Positions 82-17,351 of a stretch of DNA of 32,626 nucleotides are shown in pieces. This DNA is from Alphaproteobacteria bacterium. Lineage in GTDB: Bacteria; Pseudomonadota; Alphaproteobacteria; SMXQ01. The stretch lies in the NCBI GenBank assembly GCA_029863585.1, contig JAOTVC010000018.1, positions 1-32,626 on the forward strand. The letters are read 5' to 3'. Positions within the stretch are counted from its first letter, which is position 1; every line of letters starts with the position of its first letter. Made by a program: the position numbers and the translations under genes. Below the pieces are notes generated by a model. The model did no database searches and was not told the DNA's origin. It was given only the letters and a program-made list of their open reading frames with translations.

Positions 82-1569
82 CTATTGCGCCGCCTGGGCG
101 GCCGGTGCCGCCCGGCGCGCCTTCCACACCGGCCATAGCAGGGTGAAGGCGATCAGGGCGCCCAGGATCATGACGCCCGGGCGCCAGACCCAATCCATGT
201 CGTAGCGTGCCACCGACAGCCAGAGGTAAAGCTCTACCTTCTGGCCGAGGACGAACCCCAGAACGATGGGCGCGCGTGGCCAGCCCGTCACCTTCATCAG
301 GTAACCGAACAGCGACAGGATCAGCAGGGCGAATATGTCGAGGATCGAAAAATGGGCGGAAAAGGCGCTCAGGAAGGTCAAGCCCACGATCAGCGGCACC
401 AGGATATAGAAGGGAAAGAAGCAGACATAGGCGGCCGGCTTGATCATCGCCCAACAGATGCCCGAGGCCAGGATTTGGGATAGCACCAGGGCGACGACGA
501 TGATCATGATGTAATGCAGCTCGCCTTCCAGCATTTCGGGACCGGGGTTGAGGCCGACGCCGACGAAGGCGATCAACAGAAGCGCCATCGAGGTCGAGCC
601 CGGGATGCCGAAAGCCAGGGTGGTCAGAAGGGCGCCGCCCTCCTTGGCGTTGTTGGAGCTTTCCGGCGCGATCACGCCGCGAACGTCGCCCTTGCCGAAA
701 TTCTCGGTATTCCGCTCGGTCTGCTTGGCATGGGCATAGGCGAACCAGTCGGCGACATCGCTGCCGAGGCCGGGCAGGATGCCGACCCAGGTGCCGATGG
801 CGGCGGACCGCAAGACCAGCCATTTGTGGCGGAAGGCGTCCTTGATGCCTTCGAGGATACCCTTTTCGCCGAGTTCCGTAACCTCGGCCACCCGCCCCTT
901 GCGGGCGGCCAGGGCGATCATCTCCGGGATGGCGAAGATCGAGAGCGAGATCAGCACGACGCTGATCCCGTCCCAGAGATAGGGCTGGTCGATATCGAAG
1001 CGGATGACGCCGGATTTGATGTCCTGGCCGACGGTCGACAACAACACGCCGAGCACCGCCGCGGAAAGCCCCTTGAGCGGCGCGCCCGCGCTCATGGTGC
1101 CGATCATGGAAAGCCCCCAGATGGTAAACATGAACAGCTCCGGCGAACCGAAGCTGCGGACCACCGATTTCATCACCGGGATGGAGCCGAACAGGATCAG
1201 CGCGCCGATGATGCCACCCAGCATGGAAACCATGAAGGCCGCCGATAGCGCCCGCCGGGCTTGGCCGTTGCGCGCCATGGGGTAGCCGTCCAACACCGTG
1301 GCCTGGGCGCCGGAACCGCCGGGCACCGCCACCAGGACGGAGGTAAAGGTGTTGCCGGTGTTGCCCACGGTGGTGACGCCGATCAGGAAGGCGATGGCGT
1401 TGACCGGCTCCATCAGCATGGCGAAGGGCAGCAACACGGCGAGTTGGGCGGGGCCGCCGACCCCCGGCAAGGCCCCGCCCCAAACGCCAAGCACCACGCC
1501 AAAAAACAGCCAACCGAGGGGGACCGGCTGCGCGAGCGCGGTCAGTCCCTGCATCAAAGCCTCGAACAT
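82..1569 (-). CDS. TctA family permease of a tripartite tricarboxylate-type transporter
   Basis: Large inner-membrane subunit (495 aa) that moves a carboxylate substrate delivered by the periplasmic TctC protein, driven by an ion gradient. The family glycine-rich motif GGALPGVGGP is at about residues 31-40, followed by a second conserved block around 81-108 (AVPGGSGAQATVLDGYPMAR). The internal repeat carries a matching motif (GILPGLGSD) near the middle. Length and the many hydrophobic helices are normal for TctA. The ATG at 1569 is 33 bases after the tctC stop with an AAGAGG-like ribosome site. Its place at the end of a train of oxygenase and decarboxylase genes suggests uptake of an aromatic or other polycarboxylate, but the substrate is inferred only. 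Confidence 0.93.
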   Translation of the reverse strand: MFEALMQGLTALAQPVPLGWLFFGVVLGVWGGALPGVGGPAQLAVLLPFAMLMEPVNAIAFLIGVTTVGNTGNTFTSVLVAVPGGSGAQATVLDGYPMARNGQARRALSAAFMVSMLGGIIGALILFGSIPVMKSVVRSFGSPELFMFTIWGLSMIGTMSAGAPLKGLSAAVLGVLLSTVGQDIKSGVIRFDIDQPYLWDGISVVLISLSIFAIPEMIALAARKGRVAEVTELGEKGILEGIKDAFRHKWLVLRSAAIGTWVGILPGLGSDVADWFAYAHAKQTERNTENFGKGDVRGVIAPESSNNAKEGGALLTTLAFGIPGSTSMALLLIAFVGVGLNPGPEMLEGELHYIMIIVVALVLSQILASGICWAMIKPAAYVCFFPFYILVPLIVGLTFLSAFSAHFSILDIFALLILSLFGYLMKVTGWPRAPIVLGFVLGQKVELYLWLSVARYDMDWVWRPGVMILGALIAFTLLWPVWKARRAAPAAQAAQ

Positions 1570-1602
1570 GCCGGTCCCCTCTTATGGCGGCCCTTCAGGA
1601 CG

Positions 1603-3126
1603 CTATGGACAGATCACTTTACGGGCTTCCACGCGGTCGCCGCGCTTGGCCCAGTTCAGGCTGCAGGTCATGCCGGTCTTGAGGGCCGACCGCGGCTTCA
1701 TCGCGCCGCCCACGGTGATCTCCGACCGGCCGCCGGAAACGCGCAGCTTCATTTTCTTGCCGTCGTGGGTGAACAGCAGCACCCGGCCGTCGCGCTGGAC
1801 CTCGTCGAACTTCACCTTGGCAAGGCAATCGACCTTGCGGGCCTCCAGCCGGTCGCCCCGCTTTTCCCAGTTCATCAAGCAGGTCATGCCGGTCTTGAGG
1901 GCGTCCCGGGGCGACACCTTGCCGGCCACGGTGATTTCCGAGCGGCTGCCGGAGACGCGCAGCTTCATCGCCTTGCCCTTGTGCTTGAACAGCAGCACCC
2001 GGCCGTCGCGCTGGACCTCATCGAAGGTCACCGCGACCTTCGGCTTGCCGCCCCGGCTCACCGGAGGCAGCTTGTATTTCGCACGCAGGCGTTTGATGAC
2101 CTCGAGCCCCTCGGGATCCTGGGCGATCGCTCCGGCGATCGCCGCGTGAGTCTGTTCCCCCGAAAGGATTGTATAGCCGCCGCCGAATACGTTTTCGGCC
2201 TGCTTCATGAAGCCCGGATCCTTGGTGGCCGCGATGAAAGACGTGCGGAGAATCGCCAGCCGGTCCTGCGGCGTCTTGGGCGGCACCGAGAAGAACTTGT
2301 CCACCGCGCCCGCGCCGTTCCACTGGCGGAGGGCCGACCAGACCTCCTTGCTCAGATTTTTCTTCTTCAGCAATTCGGTGAATACCGGGACGCCCGGGTA
2401 ATCGGGCCGCGCGGTCTCCGTAACCAGGGCGACGGCGCCCTCATCCCTGATGAAACGATTGAGGATCTTGACGGTGCCGGAGCCGAACATGTCGATCTCG
2501 CCGCGGCCGTAGGCTAGGTAGATCGCGTTGGAATTGGGGTATCCCAGGACGAATTTCAGGTTCCAGCCGAGATACTCGGCGCCGAAAACCGCCGTCGAAT
2601 CCTGGGTGCGGTCGGTAGAGACCGAACCCATGGCTATCGGCTTCGCCTTGGGGTCGCGCAGCCGCGCCAGCGCCGACTTGCGGATGATCTGCACCGATGG
2701 CCCGCGATCCACGGTGCCGACATGGCCCCATTCCAAGAGGTTGTAGCGGACCGAGGAGGAGCCGCGCAGGACCGGGCCCAACGTGCCGCCGCCGGCGAAC
2801 ACGCCGACCGCCAATCCGTCGGGGTGCCCCTTGAGGTGAAGATCGTTGGCGGCGATCACCTGAAGCGTCTTGTTGCGCACCAGGACCTTGGGCTTGCCGG
2901 GGATCGTGTCGCCCCAGAAGCGGGCCACCAGGCGCCCGGTGGTATCGGTGCCGCCGCCCGCTCGCGACGCGATCACCACGGTCAAGGTCTTGTCCTTGTA
3001 GAAGTCGTCCGCGGCAGCGGCCGGCGGCGCAATCGCCAGGCCGGCTCCCACCACCAGGGCGGCCGCGGCAATTCGTGATGCGCGCCCGGCGATCATTTCG
3101 CGTGCGTGATCGTGGATGGTAGACAT
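1603..3126 (-). CDS. TctC-type periplasmic binding protein with a duplicated C-terminal domain
   Basis: Periplasmic solute receptor for the TctA permease encoded downstream; 507 aa. I chose the ATG at 3126 because a perfect AGGAGG sits just upstream; an upstream ATG at 3177 lacks such a site. Residues 1-39 look like a signal peptide (twin arginines, hydrophobic core, cleavage after PPAAAA). Residues 40-362 carry the TctC fold signature (FYKDKTLTVVIASRAGGGTD near the start), normal family length. Residues 363-436 and 437-507 are two nearly identical copies of a domain of about 71-74 aa with the core DEVQRDGRVLLF, then LRVSG, RSEITV, ALKTGMTC and EARKV-C. Each copy has two cysteines (GMTC and a C-terminal KVDC or KVIC) that could form a disulfide. 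I do not recognise this domain; ordinary TctC proteins stop before it. Confidence 0.9.
   Translation of the reverse strand: MSTIHDHAREMIAGRASRIAAAALVVGAGLAIAPPAAAADDFYKDKTLTVVIASRAGGGTDTTGRLVARFWGDTIPGKPKVLVRNKTLQVIAANDLHLKGHPDGLAVGVFAGGGTLGPVLRGSSSVRYNLLEWGHVGTVDRGPSVQIIRKSALARLRDPKAKPIAMGSVSTDRTQDSTAVFGAEYLGWNLKFVLGYPNSNAIYLAYGRGEIDMFGSGTVKILNRFIRDEGAVALVTETARPDYPGVPVFTELLKKKNLSKEVWSALRQWNGAGAVDKFFSVPPKTPQDRLAILRTSFIAATKDPGFMKQAENVFGGGYTILSGEQTHAAIAGAIAQDPEGLEVIKRLRAKYKLPPVSRGGKPKVAVTFDEVQRDGRVLLFKHKGKAMKLRVSGSRSEITVAGKVSPRDALKTGMTCLMNWEKRGDRLEARKVDCLAKVKFDEVQRDGRVLLFTHDGKKMKLRVSGGRSEITVGGAMKPRSALKTGMTCSLNWAKRGDRVEARKVICP
1606..2040 (-). repeat. Tandem in-frame duplication, unit about 216 bases, inside tctC-like gene
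   Basis: The 3' end of the TctC-type gene contains two tandem copies (1819-2040 and 1606-1818). Blocks such as 1771-1803 and 1987-2019 are identical over 33 bases and exactly 216 bases (72 codons) apart; another identical block starts at 1664 and 1880 with the same offset. Identity at DNA level as well as protein level points to a fairly recent duplication or ongoing gene conversion. Confidence 0.93.
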
Positions 3127-3152
3127 GTTCGAAGGCCTCCTTGCCAATGTTT

Positions 3153-3177
3153 GTGATGCCTTTGGGCGCGGCATCAC
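3153..3177. other. Stem-loop in the 153-base gap ahead of the tctC-like gene
   Basis: GTGATGCC at 3153-3160 and GGCATCAC at 3170-3177 are perfect complements around a 9-base loop. It lies between the stop of the SsuA-like gene (3280) and the tctC-like start (3126). It could be an intercistronic processing site or weak terminator separating the transporter genes from the enzymes; there is no clear T-run on the transcribed strand. Confidence 0.45.
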
Positions 3178-3279
3178 GTTTCTGGAACCGCCGGTGCGTT
3201 GTTTCCGGCTTTTCGTGTCGTAAAATCAGGCAACTAACATTCGTCCTCCCATTTGCCGCGGTTGTCGCGCGGGCGAAGA

Positions 3280-4245
3280 TTATTTGTAAAGCGAATCCAC
3301 GAAGCCGCTGTCATCAAGCCTCTTGACGTAGTGGAGATCCCACACCGATAGCGGATTGATGGTCGCGGCCTCTTTGTCCTGGCGCAGTGCTTCCTGGTAG
3401 ACATTGTCGATGGCGGCGAGCGTCGGGTAAAGCTTGGGCTCCAGCGCGTCGGCCAGTTCGTTGTAGACGATCTCGACCATCCCGTCGTCGAGCAGGCCCT
3501 CGCTGGTGTGGCGCGCCTTGATGATCTTCTTGGTCTTTTCCGGCTCTTGCTTGAAGAAGGCGATGCCTTCCATCAATCCCTTGAGGAACCGTTCGACGAC
3601 GTCGGGATGGCTCTCGACGAATTTCCGGCTGGTCGAGAGCGTCGTGAAGTGGATCATAGGCAGGGGGTCGATCTCGATGATCTTCATGCCCATATTGCCG
3701 GCCTGGATGGATTTGGGCGGGGTCAGGAAGGTGGCATCGGCCTTGCCGGTACGCACCCATTCCCATTTTTCGTCGCGGTAGGCGCTTTCCTCGCCCTCGA
3801 CCGCGTCCATCTCGCCCTTGGGGATGTTGAGCTGATTGATGATCTCGATGTCGTCGCGGTCGACGTCCAGGCCGTTCTGCTTCAGGAACAGCCAGTCGTT
3901 CAGCTCGGGATGGGAGCCGCGCGTCACGATCTTCTTTTCCTTGAGGTCGGACATGCCGGAGATGCCGGAATCCGGGGTGACGCAAAGCCGGTGATTCACG
4001 GCGTTTATGGTCTGGCCGATATAGACCCAATCGCTGCCCCGGGCCACGTGGCCATAGGGCGAGACGTGGTTGCCGCCGACGAAATCGACCGCTCCGCTGG
4101 TGATGTTGGCATGTGATTCGGTCGACGATATGCGGCGGTCGTAGTCCACCTCGACGCCGTGCTTCTCCCAGGACCCGGATTCGGCGATGACATGCAGCAC
4201 CGAGAGATGGGCGCTGGCGCGATAGGGAAAACTCACGTGGTCCAT
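3280..4245 (-). CDS. SsuA/THI5-like (periplasmic-binding-fold) protein without signal peptide, copy 1
   Basis: Protein of 321 aa with the NMT1/SsuA bilobed binding-protein fold, but its N-terminus (MDHVSFPYRASAHL) goes straight into the first strand of the fold with no signal peptide or lipobox. The ATG at 4245 has a good AAGGAG site, so a missing leader is not a start-site error. Signal-less members of this superfamily can be enzymes: 4,5-dihydroxyphthalate decarboxylase (Pht5) and the THI5/NMT1 pyrimidine synthases are known cases. Next to a Rieske oxygenase, a Gfo/Idh dehydrogenase and a UbiD decarboxylase, a Pht5-like decarboxylase or isomerase role is plausible. A paralogue (18618-19607) shares SFPYRA, HVI, VDY, GNHVS, the final GFVD-LY and other blocks. 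Most pipelines would call it an ABC transporter binding protein; function unproven. Confidence 0.82.
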   Translation of the reverse strand: MDHVSFPYRASAHLSVLHVIAESGSWEKHGVEVDYDRRISSTESHANITSGAVDFVGGNHVSPYGHVARGSDWVYIGQTINAVNHRLCVTPDSGISGMSDLKEKKIVTRGSHPELNDWLFLKQNGLDVDRDDIEIINQLNIPKGEMDAVEGEESAYRDEKWEWVRTGKADATFLTPPKSIQAGNMGMKIIEIDPLPMIHFTTLSTSRKFVESHPDVVERFLKGLMEGIAFFKQEPEKTKKIIKARHTSEGLLDDGMVEIVYNELADALEPKLYPTLAAIDNVYQEALRQDKEAATINPLSVWDLHYVKRLDDSGFVDSLYK

Positions 4246-4260
4246 GGCCTGCTCCTTTCG

Positions 4261-4282
4261 CCGGACATTTTGCGGCGTCCGG
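4261..4282. other. Intercistronic stem-loop between ubiD-like and SsuA-like genes
   Basis: CCGGAC at 4261-4266 pairs with GTCCGG at 4277-4282 around a 10-base loop in the 60-base gap. Short, with no T-run; possibly an RNA-processing or stabilising hairpin within the operon. Confidence 0.35.
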
Positions 4283-4305
4283 TCCGTTTTATCACCCTCA
4301 CCGCT

Positions 4306-5772
4306 CTATATTCCTTCCGGAAACGGTAGAATACCGCGGTACTTATCCATAACCTGGCGCAGCCGCGGGCGTTCGACTCGGTTGACCAGGGGAAAATCCT
4401 CACGCCAGGTCCAGGGACGGACGGCATAGAAAATGGCGCGGGTGTTCGTGTGGTCCTTTGCGGCCCGATTTTCTGGCGGCATCCTCGGGTCCAGAGGCGT
4501 GCTCCAGCATTTCTCCACCACTTCAATGTCGGTGGCGGGATCGACTCGGGTTTGCATTGCCCAAACCACCTCCTTTAGGTTGGTGGGGTCGATGTCCTCG
4601 TCCACCACCACGACATAGCGGCCGTTGCGCGCGCCCGCCGCGCATGTCATGGCACCGTGGCCGGCCTGTTTGGCGTGACCCCCATATTGCTGCTTGATGG
4701 CGACGGCGATCAGGTAGCCGCTATGGAAATAGACCCCGGTAATACCGGGAATTCCCGATGCTTCCATCTGGTCCCACAACAGGCCCGCCCGCTGGGCAAT
4801 GCCATGTGTGGGGGCGCCCGGCCATTGTGGCGCCTGGTTCATGAGGATGGGATCGTTGCGATGATAGATCGCCTTTATTCGTATGACAGGCTGCAGTTCG
4901 CCAGTGCCTCTCGTGCCTCCGGTGTAGTAGCCGGGCCATTCTCCGAACGGTCCCTCTTCGTGGGCCTGTTCCTCGGGCGGCGGAACCTCTCCTTCGATTG
5001 TGACTTCTGAATAGGCGGGTATGGGAAGCCCCGTGATCGGGCCTTCGATGACCTCAAGCGGCGTGCCGCGCAGTCCGCCGACGAAATCCAATTCCGAATG
5101 GCCCCAGGGGAATTTGATGTGGGAGGCCTGAAACACCAAAGGGTCTCCTCCGAACACGGCAACCACGGGGCAGGCCTCGCCCTTGTCCCAATGCCGCTGG
5201 CAGATTTGGCGTCCTTGCTGACCTGGGCTCATCCAAAGACCGAGAAGGTCGGGGCCGTGGACCTGCATGCGATAGGTGCCAAGATTGACATAGCCTGATT
5301 CGGGATCGCGGTTGATCAGGGAATCTCCGGTGCCGATATAGCGTCCGCCGTCATGGATGTGCGAACGAAGCGAAGGAAACTGCAAGATGTCGAGCGCGTT
5401 GCGCCCGCCTTCTCCCATGATATTTTCCATGACAGGGCCGTCTGTCACCAGCTTGGGGGGGATGGGCTGTACCCCCTTGATTTTCGCTGAATGAAGGCGG
5501 ACCAGTTCGAGCTTCGTCTTGTCCAGAGGAAACCCCATGGAGATTGCGGCGCGCTTTCGGCTGCCCACGGTCAAGCTGGAGACGCGGTAGCCCGGCGGAT
5601 GGCCCTTGATCCTATCGAACATCAGCAACGGCGGGTCGGCGAGGAACTCCGAACTGGCCTCGGTCAGGGCACCGATCTCGAGGTCCCAATCGGCGTCCTC
5701 GATCTCGGTATATTCGCCGGCTTCTTTGACGAGTTCGATGAAGCTTCTGAGGTCGTGATATTGGATGGTCAT
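4306..5772 (-). CDS. UbiD family prenyl-FMN-dependent decarboxylase
   Basis: Cytoplasmic reversible decarboxylase of unsaturated or aromatic carboxylic acids (488 aa), expected to use prenylated FMN with a divalent metal and potassium. The start MTIQYHDL at 5772 follows a GGGAGG site; a longer frame upstream lacks one. The family E-R-E catalytic set is visible: Arg168 in TYRMQ after INRDPESG (153-160), and Glu273/Glu278 in EEGPFGEWPGYY, with the same five-residue Glu-Glu spacing as in fungal Fdc1. The C-terminal region (ARNGRYVVVVDEDIDP, PATDIEVVEKCW) is typical. It lies in the oxygenase train 54 bases after a Rieske gene, consistent with removing a carboxylate from an oxygenated aromatic acid. 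No ubiX-like prenyltransferase gene is in the window, so cofactor supply must come from elsewhere. Confidence 0.92.
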   Translation of the reverse strand: MTIQYHDLRSFIELVKEAGEYTEIEDADWDLEIGALTEASSEFLADPPLLMFDRIKGHPPGYRVSSLTVGSRKRAAISMGFPLDKTKLELVRLHSAKIKGVQPIPPKLVTDGPVMENIMGEGGRNALDILQFPSLRSHIHDGGRYIGTGDSLINRDPESGYVNLGTYRMQVHGPDLLGLWMSPGQQGRQICQRHWDKGEACPVVAVFGGDPLVFQASHIKFPWGHSELDFVGGLRGTPLEVIEGPITGLPIPAYSEVTIEGEVPPPEEQAHEEGPFGEWPGYYTGGTRGTGELQPVIRIKAIYHRNDPILMNQAPQWPGAPTHGIAQRAGLLWDQMEASGIPGITGVYFHSGYLIAVAIKQQYGGHAKQAGHGAMTCAAGARNGRYVVVVDEDIDPTNLKEVVWAMQTRVDPATDIEVVEKCWSTPLDPRMPPENRAAKDHTNTRAIFYAVRPWTWREDFPLVNRVERPRLRQVMDKYRGILPFPEGI

Positions 5773-5826
5773 GGGACCTCCCTGGTGTTCCCAACCATTG
5801 TGAACACGCAACGATTCTTCATTCGG

Positions 5827-7107
5827 TCAGGTGCCATTTGCTCGGCTCTCTGTCGCGTATTTCTTCCAAAGCGTGCGGTGATCCGTTTCGTTGGGCACGA
5901 CCTCGGACAGCACGACGATATGGGACAGGTCGTTATCGGCTTCGTCGCGGATCGAATGGCGGGGTTCGCGCCCGTTCTCGACGTCCTTGATCCCTTCCAG
6001 AATCTGGCGCCGGGCGGCGGCGATGAACTTGTCCGTGGTGCCGAGATGCTCGCGGGTGCGGTCGTGGATCGGGCCCTGGCTCTCGCTGGCGAATGAATCA
6101 TGGGCCATGAAGTAGCCGCCCATGCCGGTGAAGGTGCGGCTCATCTCGTCCCGGTCCTGGAGGTAGCGGTTGGCTTGGTTGCGCACCATCCGGCCCTCGG
6201 GCGTGACCTCGGGGCCGATCGGCGCGGTATAGCGATCCAGGTCCAGGGGACGCTCGCGATTGATGGTGATGTCGAAACGCAGGTGATGGGTGTCGTCGAT
6301 CGGCACGTGCCAGTTGATCTGGTTGCCCTGATTGATGCGTCCTTCGTTGCCGACGATGGCGGCCTTGTTGGGCATGATGAAATTGGTCATGCGCACGTAT
6401 TTCTTGCCCGGCTCCGCGGCGCGGATCGAATAGATGCGGACGCCGAAATCCGCCAGTTCCAGCTCCAGCGTGGGCCGGCGGTCGTTGCCGTAATGGAAAT
6501 CCGCCGAACGCGCGCCGCCCGGCACCGCCCGGCGGTCGGGCGGCTTGACCGCGGTGTGCAGGTAGGACAGATGCACCGGGTCGATGTCGCCTTCCAGGGC
6601 CTGGAGGTAATTGCAGTCGATATAGGTCTTGGTGGTGTAGCGGTGCGCCTCGGGCACGTGGAGAAATTCATAATCCGGGAACAGCGGCGGGTCGTCGCCC
6701 CCCATATAGGTGAAAATGATGCCGGCCAGCTCCCTGCAGGGGTAGGCCTTGTGGCGGATTTCATCCTTGTAGGTGCTGTCGGCGGGTTCCCCGGGTTGTT
6801 CGAGGCAGCGTCCCGCGATATCGAAGAGCCAGCCGTGGTAGAGGCAGCGCAGGCCGCCGTCCTCGATGCGCCCGAAGCTGAGGTCCGCCGAGCGGTGCGG
6901 GCAATTGATGCCGAGCAGGCCGGGCCGGCCGGCTTCGTCGCGGAACAGAACGAGGTCTTCGCCGAGGATCCGAATCGGCCCCGGCGCGCCGCCCGCCGGA
7001 AGGTCGCCCGACAGCGCGATGGGCTGCCAATAGCGGCGCATCAAGGCGCCGCCCGGCGTCCCCGGTGCGGTGCGGGTGATCAGTTCGTTTTCCCTGGCGC
7101 TCACCAT
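5827..7107 (-). CDS. Rieske non-haem iron oxygenase, alpha subunit (divergent third copy)
   Basis: Terminal oxygenase (426 aa) of the phthalate 4,5-dioxygenase-like group. The N-terminal Rieske [2Fe-2S] domain has C69-P-H71 and C88-x2-H91 ligands (CPHRSADLSFGRIEDGG then CLYHGW). The mononuclear iron site has D176-x2-H179-x4-H184 (DIDPVHLSYLH), with Asp176 as the expected electron bridge. Length suits a homomultimeric alpha-only enzyme. The ATG at 7107 is 17 bases after the Gfo/Idh stop with a GGAG site. A dehydrogenase upstream and a decarboxylase downstream fit dihydroxylation, dehydrogenation and decarboxylation of a benzoic or phthalic acid; O-demethylation is also possible in this family. 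It differs clearly from the two copies at 9538-11934. No reductase gene is visible. Confidence 0.92.
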   Translation of the reverse strand: MVSARENELITRTAPGTPGGALMRRYWQPIALSGDLPAGGAPGPIRILGEDLVLFRDEAGRPGLLGINCPHRSADLSFGRIEDGGLRCLYHGWLFDIAGRCLEQPGEPADSTYKDEIRHKAYPCRELAGIIFTYMGGDDPPLFPDYEFLHVPEAHRYTTKTYIDCNYLQALEGDIDPVHLSYLHTAVKPPDRRAVPGGARSADFHYGNDRRPTLELELADFGVRIYSIRAAEPGKKYVRMTNFIMPNKAAIVGNEGRINQGNQINWHVPIDDTHHLRFDITINRERPLDLDRYTAPIGPEVTPEGRMVRNQANRYLQDRDEMSRTFTGMGGYFMAHDSFASESQGPIHDRTREHLGTTDKFIAAARRQILEGIKDVENGREPRHSIRDEADNDLSHIVVLSEVVPNETDHRTLWKKYATESRANGT

Positions 7108-7124
7108 CTATCGTCTCCGTTCCC

Positions 7125-8348
7125 TCACGCCGCCGGCCCGTCGTTCACCGCGACCTGCCGGGATAGGGCGATTTCCTCTCCGCTTTCCGACGATTCGACG
7201 ATGGCGAGGCAGACTTCCAGCGTCGCCATGGCCCAGCGCCCGTCGTGAAAGACGGGGCGATCCTCGACGATTCCCTGATAGAGCTCGGCGAGCTCGGCGG
7301 CGCGGCCCCGCAATTCCTGGCCCAGGGGAATTTCCCGCGGGCCGCCGTCGCCGTAAACGGTGACGCCGTTGCGCGACTGGCGCATGGTGCCTTGATCGCA
7401 GCTCACCACGGTGAGGCCGAAAAACGGCTGATATGGGGGCGGCGTGGTCTCCCCGGCCGCGGTTTCGCCTTGGGCGCCGTAGCGGCCCTCTTCCTTGGCG
7501 CGATCCAGCGCCTCGGCCTGGCCGTCTCGCCCAAGCGACGCTTTCTCCTGGTAGGCGCGCCGCCTCTTCCAGTTGAGATCGGGATCGCGGTCGAGCCCGC
7601 CCTCGCTGACCCACCAGAAGAGTTCCGCCGTGTCGAACAGGCTGCGTCCGTCATAGATCAGCGTCGCCGGGACGCCGGATTCGAACAGCAGCATGCAGCT
7701 ATAGCCGCCCGGGCACCCGGACAGGCTGTCCTCGATCACCCGGGCGCGGACCGAGGCCACCAGGCCGCCGCCGATCTGACGCACCACGTCGACCTGGTGG
7801 GGTCCCTGGTTGAGAATCGGCCCTCGGGTGGTTTCCAGTTCCTTGGGCAACCGCGAACGGTGGTTGAATTCGTTGTAGTTCCAGGTGTTGACCATGACGA
7901 GGTCACCGATCTCGCCGCTCCGGACGACCTCGCGCATCTTGCGGATCGGCGCATCGAAACTGTGGGTGTGGCCGGCCAGCATGCGGACGCCGTGACGGTC
8001 GGCGCATTCGATCATCGCCTCGCAATCCTCCAGGGTGAGGGCGAGGGGCTTTTCCACCACCATGTGCTTGCCGCAGCGGGCGGCGATTTCGGCATGCGCC
8101 CGGTGCAATTCCGGCGGTGTCGCAATGTAGACGACATCGACCGGGGAGCGTTCGCACAGCTCCGCGACATCGGCATAGGCCTCGCCGCCGAATTCCGTAG
8201 TAAAGGCCTCCCGGGCGTGGGGCCGGGGGTCCGCCGCCGCGGTGATCCGGTAGGGCAGGGTCTCGATCTCGTATTTCCGCTCCAACAGTTTGTTGGTCGC
8301 CTGCCCGAGTCCGACGAACCCTAGGGTGAGTTCACGCTGTGGTGCCGT
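7125..8348 (-). CDS. Gfo/Idh/MocA family dehydrogenase (dihydrodiol dehydrogenase-like), apparent ACG start
   Basis: NAD(P)-dependent oxidoreductase of 407 aa. The frame is open upstream of the first TTG (8285) and encodes the Rossmann loop LGFVGLGQATNKLL, which a TTG start would delete. Back to the preceding in-frame stop (8388, the bicupin stop) there is no ATG, GTG or TTG. An ACG codon at 8346-8348 lies exactly 5 bases after GGGAGG (8354-8359) and gives the family-like N-terminus TAPQRELTLGFVGLG. So either ACG is the start or an ATG was mutated or misread. EKP, the conserved cofactor/catalytic motif, is at about residues 99-101, and a GPHQVD block corresponds to the usual catalytic histidine region. 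Phthalate 4,5-dihydrodiol dehydrogenase (Pht4) belongs to this family, so a role after the Rieske oxygenases is likely. Confidence 0.87.
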   Translation of the reverse strand, partial: TAPQRELTLGFVGLGQATNKLLERKYEIETLPYRITAAADPRPHAREAFTTEFGGEAYADVAELCERSPVDVVYIATPPELHRAHAEIAARCGKHMVVEKPLALTLEDCEAMIECADRHGVRMLAGHTHSFDAPIRKMREVVRSGEIGDLVMVNTWNYNEFNHRSRLPKELETTRGPILNQGPHQVDVVRQIGGGLVASVRARVIEDSLSGCPGGYSCMLLFESGVPATLIYDGRSLFDTAELFWWVSEGGLDRDPDLNWKRRRAYQEKASLGRDGQAEALDRAKEEGRYGAQGETAAGETTPPPYQPFFGLTVVSCDQGTMRQSRNGVTVYGDGGPREIPLGQELRGRAAELAELYQGIVEDRPVFHDGRWAMATLEVCLAIVESSESGEEIALSRQVAVNDGPAA

Positions 8349-8359
8349 AACCGCCTCCC
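8346..8359 (-). promoter_or_regulatory. Strong ribosome site in front of an ACG codon
   Basis: Read on the minus strand, GGGAGG (8354-8359) is followed by a 5-base spacer and ACG (8346-8348). The optimal spacing supports initiation at ACG rather than at the TTG 63 bases further on, which would remove the nucleotide-binding loop. Confidence 0.65.
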
Positions 8360-8387
8360 GCCTAAAGCCGCACGGCCGCTTGCGGGA

Positions 8388-9512
8388 CTATTCCGCCGCG
8401 GCGTTCTCCTTTTCGGTGCAATACGGGTGATAGCCGCCCATGGCGCATTTCGCCCCGACCTTCCTGAGGGCCGCCTCGAAATCGGCGTGGACCTGGGGGT
8501 TCTCATCCTCGAACTCGATCTGGGAGCCGCCTTCCTTGATGCTCCGGAAGGTCTCATGGGCCCGGCTTTTCGGCTTCATGAAGCGGTAGCGCCAGTTGTT
8601 CCAGCGCAGCGCCAGATAACGCGCCGGCTTGGCGCCGGCGTTGAAATGCTGGTGGAACCATTGATCGGGGGGCACCACGACGCTGCCCGGTCGCCAATGC
8701 ACCCGCTGGAGCTCCGCCCCTTCCGGCCCGAGATCCGAATAGCCGATGCCGTCGACGATGATGACGTGCGCCCCCGGCCCGTGGCGGTGGCATTTCTTGT
8801 AGGTGCCGACCGGAAATTCCGAGATATGCGCCCCCATGGTGTTGCCGGCGAGGTCGAACTTCATGTTGGTCGAACCCTTGCCGCGCTCGGAATAGTCGGC
8901 CAGCCGCAGGGTCCGCGTGTCGGGCACGAAATTGGTGGTCATGAAGAAGCGGCCGAAGATCTCGCCCTCGCCGCTGAAGAAATCCTCGGCTTCGGGATCG
9001 AAGCGGTCGGCGAAGACGTAGTCGGAGTTGAACACGTAATCGACGCTATGGAACAGGTTCATGACGAAGCAGCAGTTGGTCACCGCGTAGTAGCGCACCG
9101 CTTCCGAGCCCGAGGAATTGAAATGCTGGTAATCGGCGTTGATGGGAATGGCGAACAGGCTGCCCGGCCCCCATTCGAAGCTGTGCTTGCGTCCGTCGCG
9201 CTGCCACACCGTCGTCGCGCCGTGGCCCTGGGTGACATAGACCATCTCTTCGTACATGTGGCGTTGCGGCGTGAGTTGGCCGCCGGGAGGGATTTCGCAG
9301 ATATAGGCGTCGTTGGTGCCGCCGGTGCCTTCCAGATTGACGAAGGCGGCGGGCCCGCCCTTCTTCTCCCAGTGGCCGAGTTCCGCCGTGTTGATATCCT
9401 CGATGAAGAAACCCTCGATGATCGGGATGTTCTGTTCCTTCTGCCACTCGACATAGGTGTCGAGCGGGTCCGGCAGCCATCTCTCGTCTTTCGGGTCTGT
9501 TACCTCTGCCAT
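8388..9512 (-). CDS. Bicupin protein, copy 1 (putative non-haem metal dioxygenase)
   Basis: Cytoplasmic two-cupin protein of 374 aa. The first cupin (about 70-145) has H85, E88/E89 and, in motif 2, H130 (PINADYQHFN). The second (about 225-300) has H242-x-H244 followed by H249 where cupins usually keep a glutamate, and motif 2 has H287 and H289 (PPDQWFHQHFN). A three-histidine site without the glutamate is seen in bicupin ring-cleaving enzymes such as gentisate 1,2-dioxygenase, so ring cleavage is one possibility; an isomerase or decarboxylase role cannot be excluded. The ATG at 9512 follows GGGGGAG. It sits between Rieske and dehydrogenase genes. A paralogue at 17414-18547 shares long blocks, including FVNLEG, YEEMVYV, GSLFAIP, FPVGTYKK and EDENP. 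Confidence 0.85.
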   Translation of the reverse strand: MAEVTDPKDERWLPDPLDTYVEWQKEQNIPIIEGFFIEDINTAELGHWEKKGGPAAFVNLEGTGGTNDAYICEIPPGGQLTPQRHMYEEMVYVTQGHGATTVWQRDGRKHSFEWGPGSLFAIPINADYQHFNSSGSEAVRYYAVTNCCFVMNLFHSVDYVFNSDYVFADRFDPEAEDFFSGEGEIFGRFFMTTNFVPDTRTLRLADYSERGKGSTNMKFDLAGNTMGAHISEFPVGTYKKCHRHGPGAHVIIVDGIGYSDLGPEGAELQRVHWRPGSVVVPPDQWFHQHFNAGAKPARYLALRWNNWRYRFMKPKSRAHETFRSIKEGGSQIEFEDENPQVHADFEAALRKVGAKCAMGGYHPYCTEKENAAAE

Positions 9513-9537
9513 GTCTCCCCCTTCGGTGATCGTGAAT

Positions 9538-10710
9538 TTAGGCGGCGGGCCGCGTTTCCGGCCGCGTCAGGCCGATTCGTTCGTTGATGACCTCAAGCTC
9601 GATGATCGGCTTGCCCTGATCCGCCGGCACCACGTTCAGCGGTGCGCCGCCCGCGGCGACGATGTCGATCTGTTCGCGCAACATGCGCCGCAATTCCACC
9701 ACGCCCTTGTCGGCCAGGCCCAGCTGCTCCTGGCTGCGGTCCATGATCGGCCCCTGGGTTTCCCAGGCCATGAAGTCTTGGAACGCGACCATGTCCATGC
9801 GGTATTCGTCGCGGTTCTCGCCGGTGCGGAACTCGAAATACTCAATCGGCACGTCGGCGTCCGTCGGCGTGTGAACGCCGGGATCGGGCTCGAAATTGCA
9901 GACCATGACCTGGGTGTGGGTGTCGTCGATCGGCATGCGGAACTGAAGGTTATGGCGGTGGCGCCCGGTCTTGCGGTCGTGGGACACGTGGCGCAGCGTG
10001 TTGGGGAACAGCAGCGGATGCTGGTCCACCTCGGGCCGGCCCCCGGGTTTCCGGGGCGGCGTCGTGCGGCGCTTCATGATGCCGTAATCGTCCTTGATGA
10101 AGTCGTGCTTCTCCTCGTAGTCGTCCATCATCGGCTTGAGGTGCGCCAAGTCCCCGTGCAGCCAGTAGAGGTGCGAGGGATCGACGGAATTCTCCATGCA
10201 TTGCAGCCAGTTGCAGCGCAACGGCTCGAATTTGCGGATGTAGCGGTGGCCGTGTTCCCAGGCCAGCACGTCCCAGCGCGGCAGGGCCGGGGCGGGCAGC
10301 GGGCCCATATAGGCGAACAGCACGCCGCCGAGTTTCTCCACCGGATAGGCGGTGTGGCGCACGGCGTCCTTGAGGGTCGCGCCGGGATCCTCGGCGGGGG
10401 TTTCGATGCAGCGCCCCGCGGCATTGAACTTCCAGCCGTGATAGGGGCAGCGGATGCCTTCGTCGTCGACCCGGCCGTAGGCGAGGGAGGCCATGCGGTG
10501 GGGGCATTGTTCGCCGACCAGGCCGTAGCCGCCCGCGGTGTCGCGGTACAGCACCAGGTCTTCGCCCAGGATGCGGATCCGGGTGATGGGCTTTTCGTCC
10601 GTCAACTCCGACGACGCGGCCACCGGCTGCCAATAGCGCCGCAGCAGCTCGCCCGCGGGGGTCCCCGGGCCGATCAGGGTCAGGCGTTCGTTTTCCGCTT
10701 TCGATAGCAT
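9538..10710 (-). CDS. Rieske non-haem iron oxygenase, alpha subunit (paralogue pair, copy B)
   Basis: Aromatic ring hydroxylase or demethylase alpha subunit of 390 aa. Rieske ligands C69-P-H71 and C88-x2-H91 (EQCPHRMASLAYGR, then CPYHGW) and mononuclear iron motif D177-x2-H180-x4-H185 (NSVDPSHLYWLH) are all intact. The ATG at 10710 has an AAGGAGG site; the gene ends 25 bases before the bicupin start. It is closely related to the neighbouring 10771-11934 protein across its length, with the same termini (ELEVINERIGL-RP near the C-terminus), so the pair arose by tandem duplication. Differences in the C-terminal substrate-pocket half could mean a different substrate range. The electron-transfer partner is not encoded nearby. 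Confidence 0.93.
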   Translation of the reverse strand: MLSKAENERLTLIGPGTPAGELLRRYWQPVAASSELTDEKPITRIRILGEDLVLYRDTAGGYGLVGEQCPHRMASLAYGRVDDEGIRCPYHGWKFNAAGRCIETPAEDPGATLKDAVRHTAYPVEKLGGVLFAYMGPLPAPALPRWDVLAWEHGHRYIRKFEPLRCNWLQCMENSVDPSHLYWLHGDLAHLKPMMDDYEEKHDFIKDDYGIMKRRTTPPRKPGGRPEVDQHPLLFPNTLRHVSHDRKTGRHRHNLQFRMPIDDTHTQVMVCNFEPDPGVHTPTDADVPIEYFEFRTGENRDEYRMDMVAFQDFMAWETQGPIMDRSQEQLGLADKGVVELRRMLREQIDIVAAGGAPLNVVPADQGKPIIELEVINERIGLTRPETRPAA

Positions 10711-10732
10711 GGCATCCTCCTTGGCAGTGGCA

Positions 10733-10747
10733 CCCGCCCGGGGCGGG
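10733..10747. other. Intercistronic GC hairpin between the two tandem Rieske genes
   Basis: CCCGCC at 10733-10738 pairs with GGCGGG at 10742-10747 around a 3-base loop in the 60-base spacer. It may stabilise the upstream mRNA segment or tune the ratio of the two paralogues. Short and GC-only, so chance is possible in this genome. Confidence 0.3.
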
Positions 10748-10770
10748 GACCGACTTCGTCATTCTCCGCC

Positions 10771-11934
10771 TTAAGCCGTGGCCGCGGCCTCCGTCTGAGG
10801 CCGGTCCAGCCCGATCCGTTCATTGATGACTTCCAGCTCGATGACCGGCGCGCCCTGGCCCGCCGGCGTCACGCCAAGCGGCGTGCCGCCCTTGGCCACG
10901 GTTTCGATCTGTTCCGCCACCAGGTTCCTGAAGATGTGGACGCCGCGATCGGCGGCGCCGAGGATTTCCGCGGCCCTGTTCATCACCGGTCCCTGGGTCT
11001 CCCACGCCATGACGTCCTGGGCCAGGACCTGATCGAGGCGATAGTTGCCGTCTTCGTCGCGCATGGGCACGAACTCGAACGGGGTATCGGCGTCCGGTGC
11101 GGTGCGGGCCTCGTCGTCGGGCGAAAACAGCACCATGAAGACCTGGGTATGGGTGTCGTCGACCGGCAGCCGGTATTGCAGATTGTGCACCAGCTTGCCG
11201 GTTTGCCGCGATTTCAGGACATGGCGCAGCACGTTGGGGAACAGCAGCGGGTGCTGGTCGACCCGTGCGCCCTCGTCGCCGGCCGAGGTGCGGCGCTTCA
11301 TGACGCCATGATCGAAGACGGTGAAATCGTGTTTCTCTTCGTAATGGTCCAAGGCCTTGGCAAGGTGGGCCGTCCGCCCGTGCAGCCAATAGAGATGCGA
11401 CGGGTCGACAGAGTTCTCCATGCATTGCAGCCAGTTGCAGCCGATCACCGAATGGCGCTGCACCCAGCGCCGCCCGTGCTCCCACGCCAGCACGTCCCAG
11501 CGCGGCAGGGCGGGCGCCGGCTTGGGCCCCATATAGGCGAACAACATGCCGCCCAGGCGCTCGACCGGGTAGGCGGGCTGCTTGACCGCGTCCCTAAGGG
11601 TGCTGTCCCTGGGTTCGGCCGGGGTTTCCAGGCAGCGGCCCGCGGCATTGAACTTCCAGCCGTGATAGGGACAGCGGATGCCGTCCTCGTCGATCCGCCC
11701 GTAGGCCAGAGACGCCCGCCGGTGCGGGCATTGTTCGGCCACCAGGCCGTAGTCGCCGGCCGTGGTGCGGTAGAGTACGAGGTTTTCGCCGAGAACGCGC
11801 ACCGCCTTGATCGGCTTTTCGTGCGTCAGTTCCGCGGCGGCGGCGACCGGCTGCCAATAGCGCCGCAGCAACTCCCCCGCCGGCGTGCCGGCCCCGACCC
11901 GGGTCAGTCTCTCGTTCTGTTCCTGCGTGAGCAT
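10771..11934 (-). CDS. Rieske non-haem iron oxygenase, alpha subunit (paralogue pair, copy A)
   Basis: Ring-hydroxylating oxygenase alpha subunit of 387 aa with the same ligand positions as its neighbour: C69, H71, C88 and H91 in the Rieske domain (EQCPHRRASLAYGR, CPYHGW) and D177, H180, H185 in the catalytic domain (NSVDPSHLYWLH). The shared tail LEVINERIGL-RPQTE confirms tandem duplication with 9538-10710. The ATG at 11934 has only a weak GGGAA-like ribosome site. A 211-base spacer with an inverted repeat precedes it, so this gene probably heads its own transcript running through the bicupin, dehydrogenase, UbiD and transporter genes. Family relatives include phthalate 4,5-dioxygenase and vanillate-type demethylases; which reaction occurs cannot be told from sequence. 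Confidence 0.93.
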   Translation of the reverse strand: MLTQEQNERLTRVGAGTPAGELLRRYWQPVAAAAELTHEKPIKAVRVLGENLVLYRTTAGDYGLVAEQCPHRRASLAYGRIDEDGIRCPYHGWKFNAAGRCLETPAEPRDSTLRDAVKQPAYPVERLGGMLFAYMGPKPAPALPRWDVLAWEHGRRWVQRHSVIGCNWLQCMENSVDPSHLYWLHGRTAHLAKALDHYEEKHDFTVFDHGVMKRRTSAGDEGARVDQHPLLFPNVLRHVLKSRQTGKLVHNLQYRLPVDDTHTQVFMVLFSPDDEARTAPDADTPFEFVPMRDEDGNYRLDQVLAQDVMAWETQGPVMNRAAEILGAADRGVHIFRNLVAEQIETVAKGGTPLGVTPAGQGAPVIELEVINERIGLDRPQTEAAATA

Positions 11935-15608: not shown

Positions 15609-17351
15609 TTGGCTACAGTCGATACAGTTGCGCCACCGGTGAGGCAGGGCGGCCGTTCGAACAAGGGCCTGTTCATCATGGCCCTGCTGATCGTGTTTTT
15701 CGGCTTCTACATCATCTATCCCGTCCTGCTGATCTTCATCCAGAGCTTCAACATCGCCGGTATCATCGACGGCACCTATGAGTTCAGCCTGAACAACTGG
15801 CGAGAGGCGTTCTCCGAACCGGACGTGTTCGAGAGCCTCGTCAACACCCTGATCGTCTTCGCCTCTTACACGGCGATCAGTTTCCCGCTCGCCGTCGTCA
15901 TCTCATGGATCCTGGCGCGCACCCCGATCCCGTTTTCCCGCGGGCTCGAGTTCATGTTCTGGGTTTCGTTCATGTTGCCGGCGCTGACCACCACCATCGG
16001 CTGGACGCTGCTGCTGGATCCGTTCTTCGGTTTCTTCAATGTCTGGCTCAAGGCGCTGCCTTTCATCAATGGGCCGGTGTTCAACATTTACAGCGTCGAG
16101 GGGATCGTTTTCGCCCACCTGATGGGCAACGCGCTGTCCCAGAAGGTGATGCTGCTGACCCCGGCCTTCCGCAACATGAACGCGACGCTGGAGGAAGCGG
16201 GCCGCGTCTCCGGCGCGGGGCGGCTTCGGACCATGATGCGCATCACCCTGCCGGTGATGATCCCCCCCATGGTGGTGGTGTTCCTGCTCAACCTGGTGCG
16301 CATGTTCAACACCTTCGAGATCGAGCAGATCCTGGGTACGCCGATCCGGTTCTTCGTCTATTCCACCCAGCTTTACGATTACGTGCGCGAGATGGAGCCG
16401 CCGGAATACGGCCATGCGACGGCACTGGCGAGCCTCACCCTGATCATCATCCTGTTCATCATTCCGCTGCAGCGCTGGCTGCTGAGCCGGCGCATCTACA
16501 CCACCGTGTCAGGCGATTACAAGCCGGGGCTGGTTCATCTCGGGGTGTTCCAGCCGATCGCGTTGGGGTTCGTGATCCTGATCGTGGCGCTGCTGACCAT
16601 CGTGCCGGTGCTGACCCTGTTGGGCGGCAGTTTCATGACCCGGGCGGGTTTCTTCCAGGCGGTGCCCGCCTATACCTTCAACCATTGGAACACGGTGCTG
16701 GCGGATCCCATCTTCTTCCGGGCACTGCAGACCACTTTCATCCTGTCGATTTCCACCGCCGTGATCTCGCCGCTGCTGTTCTCCATGGTGGCCTACGTGC
16801 TGGTGCGCAGGAACTGGAAGGGAAAGATCATCCTCGATTCGATCTTCTGGGGCTCGGCGGGAATCCCCGGCATCCTGTCGGGCCTCGGCCTGTTGTGGGT
16901 GATCACCGCCACGCCGGGGCTGAACTGGCTCTACGGCACCATCTGGATCCTGATCATCGTCGTCATATTGCAAGGCAAGCTCACCAGCATCCAGATGTTC
17001 AAGAGCATCTTCCTGCAGATGGGCGAGGACATGGAGGAGGCCGCGCGCATCGCCGGCGCCGGATGGTTCTATACCTATTTCAAGATCTGGCTGCCGTTGA
17101 TCGCGCCGACCCTCGTGCTGATGGGGATCTTGAATTTCGTCATCGCCGCGGGGTCGACCGGCAGCGTCGTGCTGCTGGCCAGCCGGGAAACCGTGACCCT
17201 CTCCCTGCTGGCCCTGGAATACATGACCACGTCGACAGGCTCGGCGCGCGAGGTGGCGGGTATCATCAGCCTGTTCATCGTCGCCATGACGGCGGGCCTT
17301 GCCCTGCTGGCGCGCTGGGTCGGCTTCCAGGTGGGGGTCAAGGAACGCTAG
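15609..17351 (+). CDS. ABC transporter permease, two permease units fused (FbpB-like)
   Basis: Inner-membrane permease of 580 aa made of two consecutive binding-protein-dependent transport modules, so one polypeptide supplies both halves of the channel. Each half has an EAA-type loop that contacts the ATPase: MNATLEEAGRVSGAGRL near residue 195 and EDMEEAARIAGAGWFYTYF near residue 475, both followed by LP. About 12 hydrophobic helices are visible. The start is a TTG at 15609 (MATVDTVAPP); the ribosome site is weak, and an ATG at 15678 would begin just before the first helix. It belongs with the ATPase and binding protein upstream. The bicupin gene follows 62 bases later on the same strand. Confidence 0.92.
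   Translation: MATVDTVAPPVRQGGRSNKGLFIMALLIVFFGFYIIYPVLLIFIQSFNIAGIIDGTYEFSLNNWREAFSEPDVFESLVNTLIVFASYTAISFPLAVVISWILARTPIPFSRGLEFMFWVSFMLPALTTTIGWTLLLDPFFGFFNVWLKALPFINGPVFNIYSVEGIVFAHLMGNALSQKVMLLTPAFRNMNATLEEAGRVSGAGRLRTMMRITLPVMIPPMVVVFLLNLVRMFNTFEIEQILGTPIRFFVYSTQLYDYVREMEPPEYGHATALASLTLIIILFIIPLQRWLLSRRIYTTVSGDYKPGLVHLGVFQPIALGFVILIVALLTIVPVLTLLGGSFMTRAGFFQAVPAYTFNHWNTVLADPIFFRALQTTFILSISTAVISPLLFSMVAYVLVRRNWKGKIILDSIFWGSAGIPGILSGLGLLWVITATPGLNWLYGTIWILIIVVILQGKLTSIQMFKSIFLQMGEDMEEAARIAGAGWFYTYFKIWLPLIAPTLVLMGILNFVIAAGSTGSVVLLASRETVTLSLLALEYMTTSTGSAREVAGIISLFIVAMTAGLALLARWVGFQVGVKER

Follow-up and report, generated by a model that had tools for sequence, protein, structure and literature searches.

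Why does a TctC/Bug-type periplasmic receptor of an alphaproteobacterium continue, past the point at which its untailed relatives end, into two nearly identical copies of a small cysteine-containing domain? The question is raised by a gene on a contig of 32,626 nucleotides, the whole of which was analysed and is called the window here. The gene, which encodes an N-terminal signal peptide and a C-terminal double tail, its parts and the adjoining permease gene are as follows:

1603..3126, minus strand: TctC/Bug-type periplasmic receptor gene, an open reading frame of 507 residues whose full-length model matches the TBP, TphC and BugD structures
2041..3126, minus strand: signal peptide and receptor core, aligned with the untailed relatives L063-L066, whose sequences end at the junction
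1822..2037, minus strand: tail copy 1, 72 residues, with cysteine codons at 1879-1881 and 1825-1827
1606..1821, minus strand: tail copy 2, 72 residues, with cysteine codons at 1663-1665 and 1609-1611, modelled as a six-stranded barrel
1986..2019, no strand: 34-base block identical to 1770-1803
1770..1803, no strand: 34-base block identical to 1986-2019
82..1569, minus strand: gene for the TctA permease, immediately downstream of that for the receptor (Pfam TctA, E 5e-113)

The tail copies repeat with a period of exactly 216 bases, at about 82% DNA identity over 201 aligned bases and 78% amino-acid identity. This is far beyond chance: Tandem Repeats Finder scores positions 1622-2032 at 584, with 82% matches and no indels, and the only other array in the window is an 18-base unit that occurs twice in tandem (16581-16616). 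The initial annotation had described two near-identical C-terminal copies, with two cysteines each, a beta-rich look and 33-base identical blocks 216 bases apart. The copies, the cysteines and the spacing are all borne out, and the beta-rich character reappears as six strands in a model with a mean pLDDT of 88; only the block length needs correction, the longest identical block being 34 bases.

The core to which this tail is attached is of a known kind. The full-length model (mean pLDDT 77) has the two-lobed TctC/Bug fold, the best Foldseek match being 8hk9 (E 2e-13; TM 0.72 by target length), followed by TphC, BugD and MatC, such that the terephthalate receptors TBP and TphC are the closest solved structures. 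The Pfam model for TctC (PF03401) matches an untailed relative (L063) and the paralogues L016, L017, L047 and L058 above its cut-off and leaves the window protein unmatched. Receptor and TctA genes are found in the same order at four further loci (L059, L060, L061 and L129).

Upstream of the receptor gene, positions 3280-11934 of the minus strand hold genes for an untailed NMT1-type binding protein, a UbiD decarboxylase, three Rieske/LigXa-like oxygenases, a Gfo/Idh/MocA oxidoreductase and a cupin. In content, this segment resembles an island dedicated to aromatic carboxylates of the lignin type, and the neighbourhood recurs in part at orthologous loci (L059, L060, L061, L062 and L129). Going by what these families usually do, the genes may serve to take up and degrade aromatic carboxylates.

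That the tail is foreign to the usual TctC receptor, as had been proposed, holds on two counts: the untailed relatives (32-41% identity) end where the tail starts, and none of the Pfam and NCBIfam models extends over it. It had also been regarded as a recent expansion, possibly varying in copy number and special to this one receptor, and none of these suggestions survives comparison with other genomes. Two tail copies are present in the orthologues L059 (81% identity), L060 (84%) and L061 (76%) and in two adjacent genes of the related genome G006, i.e., exactly two in five orthologues from two genera, and a single copy is present in a more distant sixth (L062, 62% identity). L059 and L061 are apparently the same contigs, equal in length and sequence, as those in the genomes G003 and G002, and are not additional to them. 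The adjacent G006 genes (L129, 6069-9180, minus strand) represent a tandem duplication of the double-tailed receptor gene itself, adjoining TctA. An assembly artefact is ruled out by the recurrence of the double tail in independent assemblies.

Because copy-specific residues have been kept in both genera (HKGK versus HDGK, with HGGK in one copy, and ends of the type DCL/NCL/KCL versus ICP), the duplication is most simply placed before the split of the genera. At synonymous sites, the two copies differ by 0.32-0.42 within the genus of the window and by 0.65-0.74 in G006, and orthologous copies compared across genera, taken from the window, differ by 0.56-0.83. The lower values within the window's own genus could reflect partial homogenisation of the copies, with which codon bias is also compatible. 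A signature of gene conversion confined to the window was sought and rejected, there being 0 private shared bases. The double tail is thus an old, fixed duplication in the orthologue group of the window receptor, and its copies have been maintained by purifying selection: both the tails and the core change several times more at synonymous sites than in their amino acids, and between genera (window versus G006) pN is 0.14-0.15 for the tail and 0.28 for the core. The tail changes less than the core between genera, and it is not junk.

Far from being confined to the window receptor, the domain occurs on some 60 proteins of the same genome. In this genome (G000; 4.09 Mb in 383 contigs, fragmented and with a listed contamination of 7%), a search located 62 tail places and a profile 67-69. 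The 61 tail-bearing open frames that were read include 51 TctC-type receptors and five ABC-type binding proteins, two of which were tested and belong to SBP_bac_8/SBP_bac_1; the remainder are small or partial and include proteins made of a signal peptide plus the domain (L048, L039). On the tailed receptors read in this genome the domain is C-terminal, and it is present in single copy on all except the window receptor. A TctC-core profile matches the same genome about 124 times, which points to a large expansion of receptors, the number being rough given its fragmentation and contamination. At one of its loci (L025; contig C365, 2600-8300), three tailed TctC genes form a tandem array, ahead of which is a short frame (450-623) resembling a decayed tail.

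A more complete relative shows the same distribution. In G006 (98% complete, 20 contigs), the tail is present on 35 of the 44 TctC receptors read, on five receptors judged by eye from their sequences to be of the ABC type, and on one stand-alone protein; on the sequence read, a TctA gene lies within 3 kb of only seven of the 35 tailed TctC receptors. Other genomes of the family add no further kind of tail partner, those seen being again TctC- and ABC-type receptors. The presence of one domain on so many different receptors, of two transporter classes, makes it almost certain that the tail is a shared modular accessory domain, and its spread as a module is directly visible in these genomes.

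A domain at the extreme C-terminus of unrelated exported proteins might serve as a sorting signal, read by a dedicated machinery for secretion to the outer membrane or the surface. Against this, the tail in the frames read is joined to a solute-binding protein or stands alone as a small protein, and is never seen on enzymes or adhesins, and receptors must meet TctA in the inner membrane, making such a role highly improbable.

Tail-bearing genomes are phylogenetically restricted. All 11 genomes of the host order that were searched (one family, five genera) have the tail, at 7-67 copies each, and among 385 genomes of the class the only other carriers are four genomes of family f105, with at least two to four copies apiece, and one of family f124, with at least one. 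A sample of 398 genomes of the phylum contained no tail beyond the window's own genome, and one tail used as a query had no match among plasmid records. On a receptor tree of G006 and G308, the tailed state is clustered (6 changes versus 15.5 in shuffles), the tree retaining two G308 rows (L132_3838 and L132_999) that resemble frames opposite a tailed gene, join on one very long branch and are disregarded in the count of seven untailed G308 receptors. Some f105 tailed receptors adjoin particular G006 tailed receptors with high support, implying either common ancestry or transfer. Distances between tails and between their cores are correlated (Mantel r 0.35; maximum of 999 shuffles, 0.28), and tails have therefore mostly moved along with their receptors; their presence on ABC-type receptors requires a separate grafting.

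Both the clustering and the correlation are what would be predicted if the tail were a passenger, stabilising or near-neutral, that spread through the duplication of tailed receptors. However, purifying selection acts on the tail at least as strongly as on the core, and the tail has crossed to ABC-type receptors and also exists alone, so that we regard a passive role of this kind as unlikely.

To what family, then, does the domain belong? When its repeat unit was searched against protein families, 37 diverse members had no match above the curated cut-offs of Pfam-A or NCBIfam, the hits being scattered and weak and each confined to a single member, and no match among PDB sequences; this fits the initial view of an extra domain, one that is uncatalogued. 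A single-domain AlphaFold model built from nine sequences (pLDDT 88, pTM 0.70) has strands at residues 2-9, 14-19, 22-28, 34-37, 52-60 and 63-71, and its closest folds are all OB barrels: CusF (2qcp/2vb2; TM 0.73, E about 4e-3) and cold-shock proteins (TM about 0.63). Foldseek returned no match for the tail at E < 0.001, and on the strength of the model the fold is probably OB-like. Two small domains, DUF5666 and DUF1344, have a sequence pattern that we take to resemble that of the tail, and were rejected as its family, since PF18914 and PF07076 match none of the copies in G000.

Because CusF is the best structural match, the tail might bind or deliver a metal as CusF does, with histidine and methionine, or else cysteine, as ligands. 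In the orthologue group of the window receptor, there is indeed a histidine near the end of strand 2 (absent in L062) and an invariant methionine in strand 3. Across the family, though, the columns nearest to the CusF-type ligands hold histidine in only 20 and methionine in only 13 of 88 distinct tail domains. Membership of the CusF family is itself rejected, as hhalign against CusF relatives gives a probability of 6% over 21 columns, and the CusF profile (PF11604) found nothing in G000. A metal role of this type is accordingly very doubtful.

What is conserved throughout the family are the cysteines, present in 87 of 88 and in 84 of 84 distinct domains, and the glycine, arginine and lysine residues of the loops, which are strongly conserved among distinct domains. 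By residue numbering, Cys53 and Cys71 face each other on the last hairpin; because the protein is exported and its mature core contains no cysteine, the pair likely forms a disulfide. The tail is also strongly basic. In G006, it carries a net charge of +28 per 100 residues; the corresponding values are +7 for the cores of tailed receptors and +12 for untailed receptors, and since the latter are basic as well, part of the charge of the tail may reflect lineage.

A possible explanation for a folded, locked and highly basic barrel shared by receptors that differ in family and transporter class is that it serves as a disulfide-locked electrostatic module for docking or retaining receptors in the envelope, a reading that we put forward tentatively and with somewhat less than even confidence. 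In the oxidising periplasm, the two cysteines would lock the last beta-hairpin, and the conserved basic residues of the loops (unit positions 10-13, 29-32, 44 and 48) would form a positive face. This face could engage either an anionic partner common to the tailed receptors or an anionic component of the envelope (peptidoglycan, LPS phosphates or lipid headgroups). Docking would then hold a large variety of receptors at their sites of use, and the window receptor, with its tandem tails, would gain in avidity. Occurrence on two unrelated receptor families and on stand-alone secreted proteins argues for this reading, and the lack of a tail on nine of the 44 TctC receptors in G006 argues against it. 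An untailed receptor gene (L063) also adjoins TctA; hence, the tail is not needed for permease pairing as such.

The same positive charge could instead serve to capture and pre-concentrate anionic substrates, such as aromatic or humic carboxylates, for the adjoining core, with a second copy raising capture. The carboxylate-type fold of the core, closest to the terephthalate receptors, and the nearby UbiD and LigXa-like oxygenase genes would accord with such a role. However, one and the same tail sits on very different cores, ABC-type receptors among them, whose specificities should differ, and it also exists without any receptor (L048, L039); substrate capture therefore appears improbable.

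Stand-alone secreted copies of the tail, with an extra cysteine pair, lie directly upstream of a tailed TctC gene in two genera:

L039 (G000), 2186-2488, minus strand: stand-alone copy, with the tailed TctC gene at 656-1909, minus strand
L139 (G006), 2541-2855, plus strand: stand-alone copy, with the tailed TctC gene at 2879-4246, plus strand

Such pairs would be expected if tails bound one another, or the stand-alone copies, and thereby clustered receptors, the double tail acting as a bivalent linker. A weak match between the tail and an S-layer self-assembly domain (9fs9; TM 0.49-0.60) points the same way and is a lead only. Nevertheless, domains that each carry +28 per 100 residues should repel one another in the absence of a bridging anion, and we consider homotypic assembly quite improbable. 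A bolder version of docking, to which we give rather little credence, is that the tail is a common plug of a new, supercharged OB-like family, with which one bacterial order attaches dozens of receptors, TTT and ABC alike, to a single shared scaffold in the envelope, and that, jointly with this, the free-standing copies are adaptors and the double tail the high-avidity form.

Few bacterial protein families have expanded as strongly as the TctC receptors, with within-genome expansions in Bordetella and Rhodoplanes, and how large receptor sets are used without a neighbouring permease is an open question (PMC5994714, PMC5812351). Over-representation of these receptors was thus already known (PMC5994714). 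The open-access papers that we searched describe no C-terminal OB-type domain on TTT receptors; what seems to be new is an accessory domain without a catalogue entry, attached to receptors of a familiar kind, of which the window holds the double form. The tail defines a domain family absent from the libraries searched, and its host order is one of little-known, uncultured alphaproteobacteria in which dozens of different receptors end in this domain. Being better conserved than the receptors and shared with the ABC type, it offers a concrete handle on large receptor sets, and finding its partner would tell what tailed receptors have in common.

Comparison with known systems sets the tail apart from each of its nearest counterparts. 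Cold-shock proteins share its barrel topology but are cytoplasmic nucleic-acid binders, whereas the tail is exported, contains cysteines and has 14% identity to them. CusF, a periplasmic Cu/Ag-binding protein of OB fold, is likewise a small periplasmic barrel, but the tail has two near-invariant cysteines and a very high positive charge, and leaves the ligand columns of CusF unconserved. Relative to the TctC/Bug receptors (TphC/TBP, BugD and MatC), the window core is alike in fold and in having its gene adjoin TctA; the C-terminal domain, in contrast, distinguishes the window receptor from its untailed relatives and from the known structures, all of which lack it.
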